A DNA stretch of 64,000 nucleotides, taken from assembly GCF_040362915.1 (NCBI RefSeq), contig NZ_AP029612.1, positions 1,302,001 through 1,366,000 on the forward strand, read 5' to 3'. Each line of letters opens with the position of its first letter. The first letter of the stretch is position 1. Made by a program: the position numbers and the translations under genes. Source of the stretch: Sediminibacterium sp. KACHI17 (GTDB lineage: Bacteria; Bacteroidota; Bacteroidia; Chitinophagales; Chitinophagaceae). This document shows, piece by piece, positions 57,142 through 59,589 of the stretch. Under the pieces are notes generated by a model. It was not told the origin of the DNA and made no database searches. It worked only from the letters and a program-made list of their open reading frames with translations.

Positions 57142-57564
57142 CTACATGTCTACACGCGGCCATTTCCATGCGTAACAAATAATAAGACCTAATAAAATGA
57201 CTTCCACAACAGCACCAACTATCATATGTATCCATGCCTCTCCTGCCAGATTATACAGCGTATAGGGAATATATATTGCCGCAACGACCATATTCAACCC
57301 ACGATTGATCTTAGCCGGTAAAACAACTGAAAGAAAAATCATTAGTGCAGAAATCGTCAATGATACGAGTGCTATCGAAAGAAATGCGGGTGTGATATCA
57401 AATACATATACCCTTCCATTTTGAATATCTGTCAGCTTACCCGGCATGTATAAATGAAAATAATCGACATAGATATAGAGGAACATCAAACTCGTCCATA
57501 AGGATGCCAGTTTCAGCTGTGTGCTTACTTTTATTTCCTTTAATTCACTTTGTTGTGTATGCAT
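57142..57564 (-). CDS. DUF6326 family membrane protein
   Basis: A 140-residue protein with four membrane helices (LASLWTSLMFLYIYVDYFHL, AFLSIALVSLTISALMIFLS, LNMVVAAIYIPYTLYNLAGE, MIVGAVVEVILLGLIICYAW). The length and pattern fit DUF6326. Function unknown. It follows the barrel protein with only 10 bases between, so it is co-transcribed with it, in the Crp/Fnr-linked cluster. Confidence 0.75.
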   Translation of the reverse strand: MHTQQSELKEIKVSTQLKLASLWTSLMFLYIYVDYFHLYMPGKLTDIQNGRVYVFDITPAFLSIALVSLTISALMIFLSVVLPAKINRGLNMVVAAIYIPYTLYNLAGEAWIHMIVGAVVEVILLGLIICYAWKWPRVDM

Positions 57565-57574
57565 AACATTGCTA

Positions 57575-58204
57575 TTAAAAATTAAAGCCTACATGTAATC
57601 CAGGTTCTCCAAACACAAACTTGGACCATTTATCATCCAACTGTTTGAATCCATTGGGCAATGTAGTATGATAAGCACGGTGGGTGATGGCGAGAGATGG
57701 CTGAATAAAAAAACGATCCTTAAATAATTTCACATGATACCCTACCCGATAGGTGTTGAAGATCTGAAAACCATTATCGATCTTTTTATCTTGACGATCT
57801 TTAAAAGTTTGCCAGGTGGGCATCACATTCAATTCTGCATACCAATTGTGGGTAAAGAATCGCTGGTAAGATAGAGATACTCCATACTCACGAACATAGC
57901 CCGGGAACTCTTCTTCCTTCTTTCCATATGCTTTGTTCAAAAATGGATGGATACCATTGGGCCAGGCATATTTCCAGGTTTTGGGTTCAATGGTAATGAC
58001 ATCTTTACCGGTGATGCGATAACCAAAATTGAGTTGAACAAACTCCGGACTATTGGTCGTAGCCAGATTACCAAACAGCACAAACATAGAACTTCCCACA
58101 AACCATTTCTTATGCATAGTATCTGTTGCAGCATACTGTGCTTTGAGTTGGAGGGCGCTTACCATCATGAAGAGAATACCCATAATTAAAACTTTCTTTT
58201 TCAT
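57575..58204 (-). CDS. Outer-membrane barrel-like secreted protein (paralogue A)
   Basis: A 209-residue protein with signal peptide MKKKVLIMGILFMMVSALQLKA and an alternating beta pattern (VGSSMFVLFGNLAT, QLNFGYRITGKDVITIEPK, YAWPNGIHPF, HVGFNF at the C-terminus). The aromatic C-terminal residue is typical of outer-membrane barrels. Family unrecognised. Shares layout and motifs with the next gene (tandem duplicates). Start ATG 58204; 19 extra upstream residues do not look like a signal peptide. Confidence 0.75.
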   Translation of the reverse strand: MKKKVLIMGILFMMVSALQLKAQYAATDTMHKKWFVGSSMFVLFGNLATTNSPEFVQLNFGYRITGKDVITIEPKTWKYAWPNGIHPFLNKAYGKKEEEFPGYVREYGVSLSYQRFFTHNWYAELNVMPTWQTFKDRQDKKIDNGFQIFNTYRVGYHVKLFKDRFFIQPSLAITHRAYHTTLPNGFKQLDDKWSKFVFGEPGLHVGFNF

Positions 58205-58233: not shown

Positions 58234-58278
58234 CAAAAGTCGATGGACGATCCACAACCACTCATTCACTTAAGTTAA
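58234..58278 (-). promoter_or_regulatory. Candidate activator-dependent promoter of barrel gene A
   Basis: Motif CCACTCaTTCACTTAAGTTAA (58258-58278) lies 54 bases upstream of the start codon. Its palindromic core is ACTTAAGT. The degenerate -7 box GACTTTTG (complement of 58234-58241) is 34 bp from the core's centre. The copy upstream of the other barrel gene has the same spacing. Confidence 0.6.
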
Positions 58279-58311
58279 GAAATGTGTGTCGCGACTTTTT
58301 TTGACAAGTTT

Positions 58312-58923
58312 TTAGAAATTGAATCCGAAATGAAGTCCGGGTTGGATGAAATAGTTATTCCACTTGCTTTCCACAGCTTTGAAAGATGCGGGAACATTGG
58401 TTCGGATGGGCCAATAACTACATCCCAATGCCGGTTCGAAGAAGAAACGGTTTTTGAAAAATTGGAATTGGTAGCCTAAATGAAAATTCAGGTATAAAGT
58501 ATATCCATTACCAATCTTCTTTTTGTTCTCATCCATGTATTTTTCAAAAGCATTCAATGCATACACAGAAGTATATACACCCTTCCACCAGAAACGTTGG
58601 TAACCTACCGTGGGTGCGAGTATGCGTGCATGACCGGGATAACCTTCTCCCGGCTTATCAAAGTTGGGACCGAATGGAATACCGATGGGCCAGGCATAAA
58701 TGGATCTTTTGAATTCAAAGGAAACCACATCTTTTGGTGTGATTCGATAACCGACATTCAATTGTATGTACTCGGGGTTGTTGACTTTGGAGAAATTACC
58801 CAACATCAGTAATGAGCTACCGATATACCATCTTTTAAACGTGCTGTCTTTGGGTGTGTCTTGTGCTTGTAAACTACTTACCCAACCGATCGCCAATGCC
58901 AACCATAGAACTTTCTTTTGCAT
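58312..58923 (-). CDS. Outer-membrane barrel-like secreted protein (paralogue B)
   Basis: A 203-residue protein with signal peptide MQKKVLWLALAIGWVSSLQA. Motifs parallel to paralogue A: RWYIGSSLLMLGNFS / YIQLNVGYRITPKDVVSFEF / IYAWPIGIPFGPNF / FIQPGLHFGFNF at the C-terminus. Probably a small outer-membrane barrel; function unknown. It follows the Crp/Fnr gene on the same strand. Confidence 0.75.
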   Translation of the reverse strand: MQKKVLWLALAIGWVSSLQAQDTPKDSTFKRWYIGSSLLMLGNFSKVNNPEYIQLNVGYRITPKDVVSFEFKRSIYAWPIGIPFGPNFDKPGEGYPGHARILAPTVGYQRFWWKGVYTSVYALNAFEKYMDENKKKIGNGYTLYLNFHLGYQFQFFKNRFFFEPALGCSYWPIRTNVPASFKAVESKWNNYFIQPGLHFGFNF

Positions 58924-58952
58924 ATCTTTTTAATTGCTGTTAAATGATATGA

Positions 58953-58997
58953 CAAAGAAAGAGAGGTGGAAAGATTCCACTCGTTCACTTAAGTTAA
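58953..58997 (-). promoter_or_regulatory. Candidate activator-dependent promoter of barrel gene B
   Basis: CCACTCgTTCACTTAAGTTAA (58977-58997), one mismatch to the copy at 58258-58278, also 54 bases upstream of the start codon. The -7-like box TTTCTTTG (complement of 58953-58960) is 34 bp from the core centre, as in the other copy. Confidence 0.6.
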
Positions 58998-59013
58998 ATA
59001 ATGAACGCGTCTT

Positions 59014-59589
59014 TTATTTTTTCTCTGAAATTCTGGCCCTTAGTCGGCTTAAGGATTGTGGCTGTATACCCAAGTAACTCGCTAACTGGTGTTGAGGAAC
59101 ACGCTGAATGAGGTCGGGTCTTTTATCCAATAAATTCAAATAGCGTTGTTCAGGAGAAGAGGTTTTGAACTCATCAAAATCCATTCGTTCTTTGGCCAAG
59201 AGTTCTTCGGATAACTTCTTACACAGGGACTCAAACTTAGGAAATTTAGCATTAACCTCCGCTTCCATATCTGAGTTGGAAATGAGCAGTATGCAGTCTT
59301 CTGTACAACTCACATAATATTCAGAAGGTGTTTGGCTGATGACGCAAGGAGGAGTCAAAGCTTCCATTTCAGTGTAGAAAGCGGTGGTTTTTTCTTCCGC
59401 ATCTATTTCATAGTAAGTACGAATACAACCTTTGAGTACAAAATAGCTTTCTTTTGATTTTTGCCCTTCTTTCAGTAAGATCGTTCCTTTCTTTACGGAA
59501 TGAAAAATATCTAAAGAAACGATAGCGTTCTTTTCTTCTTCTGTTAGAGTGACATATTTGGAGAGGAAATTGAAGAGTAGGGTTTGCAT
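59014..59589 (-). CDS. Crp/Fnr-family transcriptional regulator
   Basis: A 191-residue protein with an N-terminal cyclic-nucleotide-binding-type beta-barrel (VKKGTILLKEGQKSKESYFV, LKGCIRTYYEIDAEEKTTAF) and a C-terminal HTH (about 155-188: VPQHQLASYLGIQPQSLSRL), typical of Bacteroidota Crp/Fnr proteins that lack the cysteines of Fnr. It probably acts through sites in the two barrel-gene promoters directly downstream (inference). The gene itself starts at 59589. Confidence 0.92.
   Translation of the reverse strand: MQTLLFNFLSKYVTLTEEEKNAIVSLDIFHSVKKGTILLKEGQKSKESYFVLKGCIRTYYEIDAEEKTTAFYTEMEALTPPCVISQTPSEYYVSCTEDCILLISNSDMEAEVNAKFPKFESLCKKLSEELLAKERMDFDEFKTSSPEQRYLNLLDKRPDLIQRVPQHQLASYLGIQPQSLSRLRARISEKK

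Follow-up and report, generated by a model that had tools for sequence, protein, structure and literature searches.

The window analyzed here is a 64,000-nucleotide stretch of the Sediminibacterium sp. KACHI17 genome, and the genes of interest lie together on its minus strand. The first of these encodes REG, a 191-aa regulator of the Crp/Fnr family (59014 to 59589) with the recognition helix GIQPQSLSRLRARI and no canonical cNMP-binding signature. Its N-terminal cNMP-binding-like domain matched Pfam cNMP_binding (PF00027) at 1.7e-8, over the cut-off, and HTH_Crp_2 reached just 0.011, under the cut-off. The best solved relative, 3dn7 (4.8e-24), matched over the full length and through the recognition helix, and this match together with the conserved PQSLSRxR helix argues for a Crp-type winged helix. 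In an alignment of 40 relatives, 61 to 89% identical to REG, the PQSLSR helix was nearly invariant (P177, S179, L180, S181, R182, and R186 were invariant), as were cysteines C82 and C123, while C55 and C95 were invariant throughout. Inspection of the same 40 sequences by eye revealed no canonical cAMP-binding GE...RS motif. REG is not Crp proper because the cAMP-binding residues are missing, which leaves its membership in the Crp/Fnr superfamily unaffected, nor is it FNR proper, given an NCBIfam Fnr score of 13.8 bits against a cut-off of 228 and cysteines that do not follow the FNR N-terminal arrangement. The invariant C55 and C95, along with the missing residues of the cAMP pocket, speak against simple sensing of cAMP, and the two cysteines make thiol-based redox or ligand sensing a candidate worth testing. 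The AlphaFold2 model of REG was of low confidence (pLDDT 67), and its Foldseek list was left out of the evidence.

Downstream of the regulator gene lie two paralogous genes, B2 (58312 to 58923, 203 aa, with a signal peptide) and B1 (57575 to 58204, 209 aa), whose products are 40% identical (E value of 7e-48). The AlphaFold2 model of B2 (mean pLDDT 87.4, pTM 0.78) has eight strands and an N-terminal hydrophobic helix, predicting with good confidence an 8-stranded outer-membrane beta-barrel. The best Foldseek folds for B2 were OprF, NspA, OmpA, CarO, and OmpW, all weak (best E value of 1.6e-3), and none reached an E value of 0.001 or lower. Pfam families likewise scored below their cut-offs on the barrel proteins of the window (Pom, 16.1 bits versus 22.4; OMP_b-brl, 14.5 versus 28.7), a search with the barrel family over 46 relatives was weak (best E values of 0.0013 for Pom and 0.017 for PagL), and a PDB profile search of the barrels yielded nothing of note. 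The barrels were assigned to no family, as a sequence match at the family level to OmpW, OmpA, PagL, or Pom was absent. The mechanically called B1 reading frame opens at GTG 58261, within the promoter; the true start is most likely ATG 58204, since the GTG would leave the operator almost on the start codon and relatives use ATG. Ten nucleotides after B1 lies a gene for a DUF6326 membrane protein (57142 to 57564; Pfam DUF6326, 6.5e-10), which probably shares the B1 transcript and would hence belong to the same regulon. Such genes occur in 36 of 72 related loci, commonly 6 to 10 nt behind a barrel gene, and in one locus (L110) the gene has its own operator. Elsewhere, one of the two barrels has decayed: B2 is broken by stop codons beside an intact B1 at G092:C11 405990 to 406228 (L020 and L022). 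A stop codon also interrupts the B2 frame in L072, where a module typical of Bacteroidota sits on a contig labeled as an Azovibrio restrictus metagenome-assembled genome (a betaproteobacterial bin) that is probably misbinned.

Each barrel gene is preceded by a copy of the same short site. An earlier note on this DNA had described two 21-mers with one mismatch at equal offsets from the start codons, and both are present: ccactcattcacttaagttaa (58258 to 58278) and ccactcgttcacttaagttaa (58977 to 58997) differ by a single base, and counting from the first base of each 21-mer to the A of the ATG (58204 and 58923, minus strand) gives 54 for both genes, with 53 bases intervening. The geometry that it had described is equally accurate, in that the ACTTAAGT core begins 34 bases ahead of the degenerate −7 boxes GACTTTTG (58234 to 58241, B1 promoter) and TTTCTTTG (58953 to 58960, B2 promoter), each one base off TAnnTTTG, and the Crp/Fnr gene lies directly upstream, stopping 16 bp before the second operator. 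On the coding (minus) strand, the putative operators for B1 (58265 to 58278) and B2 (58984 to 58997, within a conserved block at about 58979 to 59001) share one sequence, TTAACTTAAGTGAA, an inverted repeat of 14 bp that is arranged 5-4-5 like FNR-type boxes. The functional unit is this palindrome, TTAAC-TTAA-GTKAA, with conserved non-palindromic flanks, rather than the 21-mer. In relatives, the flanks are strongly conserved yet asymmetric, with TTTC before the palindrome (about 58998 to 59001 and 58279 to 58282) and CGA after it (58981 to 58983 and 58262 to 58264), which is beyond what a symmetric dimer alone explains; in the KACHI17 genome itself, the upstream flank is TTAT-like at B2 and TTTC at B1.

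A genome scan for further copies, proposed in the earlier note, found exact TTNACTTAAGTNAA three times in the 3.14-Mb genome, two of these being the window sites. The third, at 430713, coincides in part with another gene's stop codon and lacks a matching −7 box, and it was put down to chance on both grounds. When the palindrome was combined with TTTG at the fixed distance, just the two window sites were recovered genomewide, and the reversed-pattern control returned 0. Separately, ACTTAAGT occurs more than 10 times within 14 kb of the same genome (G000:C1 123585 to 137116), mostly as CTAACTTAAGTGTA at repeating intervals; this cluster looks like a large repetitive gene with no relation to the operator.

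The arrangement recurs widely in other genomes. Using B2 as the query, we collected 72 loci, which are non-independent samples, from Chitinophagaceae, Spirosomataceae, Cyclobacteriaceae, Sphingobacteriaceae, and others, including Kapabacteria/Ignavibacteria bins. Most keep the gene order regulator, B2, B1, and the full module of Crp/Fnr gene, site, B2, site, and B1, often with DUF6326, is found in approximately 70 further Bacteroidota/Kapabacteria loci. Exact TTNACTTAAGTNAA precedes 93 of 120 barrel genes (57 of 66 B2 and 36 of 54 B1), and the logo of 105 sites comprises TTTCTTAACTTAAGTGAACGA, a variable stretch, and then TCTACTTTTGCA. With the module recurring across the phylum, the site is most probably where the regulator turns the barrel genes on. 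The earlier note had named a relic of the gene duplication as the alternative, by which the repeat would be functionless, and B1 and B2 are indeed paralogues with 40% identity. The palindrome and its spacing are retained, however, in distant genomes where the barrels are just 40 to 60% identical and the intervening DNA has diverged; the stretch between palindrome and box is much less conserved than the palindrome; and the palindrome also lies ahead of unrelated genes encoding DUF6326 (L110), an FAD monooxygenase (L118), and a CAAX-type protease (L059). This footprint across genera rules out a relic as the main explanation and leaves it a negligible probability.

The module is patchily distributed. 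A search of 149 family genomes found B2 in 9 but not in the congener sampled, and the barrel tree departs from taxonomy, with a single Runella clade rejected at an AU P value of 1.5e-14 (for a group picked after the tree was seen). Vertical inheritance with the Runella barrels as one clade was therefore rejected, and the tree leaves paralogy and transfer unseparated. The module has likely spread as a set by horizontal transfer, with paralogy as an alternative; no match to B2 was found in PLSDB that would indicate plasmid carriage. In the closest relatives, the B1 site has decayed to TTAACTAAAGTGAA and TTAACCAAAGTGAA. Together with the −7 boxes of KACHI17, each one base off, this suggests that control of B1 may be weakening in its own lineage.

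Promoter geometry adds a second constraint. TTTG occupies operator positions 42 to 45 in 98 of 105 promoters, with exact TAnnTTTG in 69 of those 98, while the distance from palindrome to ATG ranges from 50 to 67 bp; because the latter varies and the former is fixed, the spacing constraint is transcriptional and not tied to the gene start. In Flavobacterium psychrophilum, TAnnTTTG occupies positions −12 to −5 (PMC9723704), so that +1 would fall on position 50 of the operator, whose center would lie near −42.5. By this analogy, transcription is predicted to start near 58948 (B2) and 58229 (B1), each with a 25-nt leader, and the predicted center at about −42.5 would agree with the center near −41.5 of class II sites. 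The fixed box spacing combined with a weak or missing −35/−33 element likewise suggests a class II arrangement. A TTG at the −33 spacing was found in 2 of 98 promoters, compared with 6.4 in shuffles, which fits activator dependence. This is weak evidence by itself, as the lack of such an element is not exceptional in Bacteroidota; in F. johnsoniae, too, no −33 element was identified according to a statement quoted in PMC7366714.

The same geometry bears on two further explanations. REG might bind these sites as a repressor, with a dimer near −42 blocking RNA polymerase until a signal releases it; the site overlaps the region that polymerase occupies, and some Crp/Fnr proteins are known to repress from such overlapping positions. 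A repressor could do without a distance to the −7 box that is exact to the base, however, and this distance is fixed in 98 of 105 promoters despite ATG distances of 50 to 67 bp; moreover, the lack of a −33 element and the many imperfect −7 boxes suit dependence on an activator. We therefore regard repression as unlikely. The palindrome could instead act as an RNA or DNA structure, for instance to terminate the regulator transcript, being self-complementary and located shortly past the regulator stop codon. Yet it is A+T rich with no U run after it on the coding strand, it recurs ahead of B1, a long way from the regulator, and a terminator would have no need of its fixed distance to the −7 box, so that this explanation is barely credible.

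The link between operator and regulator was examined by searching for a strict pattern, TTMACTTAAGTGAA-N27-TTTG, in 395 genomes of the phylum and 296 of the family. Nine of the 395 phylum genomes carried the pattern (the reversed control was almost empty), and all nine were among the 17 that possess the regulator at an E value of 1e-50 or lower (hypergeometric P value of 4e-14). In the family sample, 13 of 14 motif genomes encoded it. In the exception, G608, the site starts at the stop codon of a Crp/Fnr gene, ahead of an FAD monooxygenase gene, and this Crp/Fnr protein is 27% identical overall to REG, yet has the same PQSLSR recognition helix (GITPQSLSRIRKR). The regulators with PQSLSR helices in L138, L166, L167, and L168 have no clear site at the 3′ ends of their genes, and distant regulators of the subfamily adjoin DUF6326 proteins and zinc-dependent NADPH dehydrogenases. 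Autoregulation finds little in its favor, with the core ahead of the regulator in merely 2 of 61 loci and the REG gene of the window itself without this site upstream. A different, unlinked regulator might bind the palindrome, the neighboring Crp/Fnr gene being coincidental; sequence by itself names no binder, and the KACHI17 genome has at least four more Crp/Fnr paralogues. Strict sites are nonetheless limited to genomes with the regulator or immediately follow a Crp/Fnr gene whose product has this helix, and the helices of the four other paralogues differ, two of them having palindromes of their own (TTGACATTTGTCAA and TTGATCTAGATCAA). An unlinked binder is thus very improbable. What the sequence comparisons show is the putative operator with its geometry, how it is conserved, and its tie to REG.

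We consider that both sites are probably operators for class II-style activation by the neighboring Crp/Fnr protein, with a probability of roughly 0.84. This reading had been advanced in the earlier note and is now strengthened by the footprint, the fixed −7 spacing, the absent −33 element, the co-occurrence with the regulator, and the helix and operator shared with a 27% identical protein. A REG dimer would bind TTAAC-TTAA-GTKAA centered near −42 and, once bound, would recruit RNA polymerase in the manner of class II activators to the two barrel promoters, whose −7 box resembles TAnnTTTG and which lack a −33 element; binding, activation, and the transcription start are what we infer here. A small local regulon of two 8-stranded outer-membrane barrels and the DUF6326 membrane protein would thereby be switched on. 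In related loci, neighbors of detoxification type (zinc-dependent NADPH dehydrogenases, SDRs, and an FAD monooxygenase) point tentatively to stress or a small molecule as the signal, and a reasonable guess would be that a small reactive molecule elicits a response of the envelope or of detoxification.

The proposed mechanism appears ordinary, Crp/Fnr class II-like activation, and unusually well backed by sequence. FNR and DNR act in class II fashion at TTGAT-N4-ATCAA centered at −41.5. The system proposed here shares with them a regulator of Crp/Fnr fold, a 14-bp TT...AA palindrome of 5-4-5 layout centered near −42, and a promoter with no recognizable upstream core element; it differs in its half-site (TTAAC/GTKAA versus TTGAT), in the unmatched Fnr equivalog, in the Bacteroidota −7 box TAnnTTTG, and in that the Fe-S cysteine set of FNR is not established in REG. 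The (de)halobox of CprK, TTAAT-N4-ATTAA (PMC2610375), is likewise a 5-4-5 palindrome that opens with TTAA and serves a local regulon beside the regulator gene, but the fifth base here is C rather than T, and no reductive dehalogenase was seen in the neighborhood. Similar in organization are HcpR and HcpR2, with the motifs TTGAC-N4-GTCAA and GTAAC-N4-GTTAC and subfamilies in which helix and motif covary (PMC1274295). There, too, the Crp/Fnr gene adjoins its target, the regulon is very small, and helix and motif covary between subfamilies; the TTAAC half-site is intermediate between both motifs, and the target is a hybrid-cluster protein in HcpR and an outer-membrane barrel here. Finally, E. coli ompW is under FNR control (PMC4886647), which parallels the predicted control of a small 8-stranded outer-membrane barrel by an FNR-type activator, except that the E. 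coli regulator is global and the one here local; OmpW is no more than a weak fold match to B2. A literature search that covered few subscription journals found no description of the regulator, operator, or barrel family, nor anything relevant on ACTTAAGT or DUF6326.

Bacteroidota genomes hold many Crp/Fnr paralogues with no known target, and one of these now has a precise predicted operator, promoter geometry, and regulon that are directly testable. Of more interest than the mechanism itself is a possible general rule, regulator gene, operator at approximately −42, target, that could be reused in assigning targets to other paralogues. We give even odds to the proposal that many orphan Bacteroidota Crp/Fnr proteins have a private FNR-type palindrome right after their gene, in class II position and with a half-site set by the recognition helix. 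If true, the operator, target, and start site of many uncharacterized regulators could be read from sequence. The survey behind it was small and mostly of one genome (23 distant Crp/Fnr genes in 81 kb, 4 from KACHI17 and 19 from G608). A TT-N10-AA palindrome followed by TTTG gave six matches at offset 36 (center −41.5), compared with 0.06 per spacing in shuffles, while other offsets were nearly empty (one match at 33 and two at 59). Of the six, five fall no more than about 50 bp from a Crp/Fnr 3′ end, ahead of YCII-like, AhpD-like, DinB-like, or SDR genes (names taken from sequence alone), and one of the six sits just before a Crp/Fnr gene itself. Within KACHI17, TTGACATTTGTCAA lies at the 3′ end of a Crp/Fnr gene before a YCII-like gene (G000:C1 2790408, L178), and TTGATCTAGATCAA, a perfect FNR box, at that of another before an AhpD-like gene (G000:C1 2407834, L179). 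Such private palindromes behind other Crp/Fnr genes, whose spacing almost equals that of the window sites, support the view that the operator in the window belongs to its neighboring regulator. Half-sites change with the helix (PQSLSR with TTAAC, QQSLSR or QPSLSR with TTACC, PEFLSK with TTAAA, DATNFSK with TTGGT, and SPETYTR with TTGAC), and these pairs constitute a testable code. Crp/Fnr relatives numbered 20 in one genome and 5 in that of the window.
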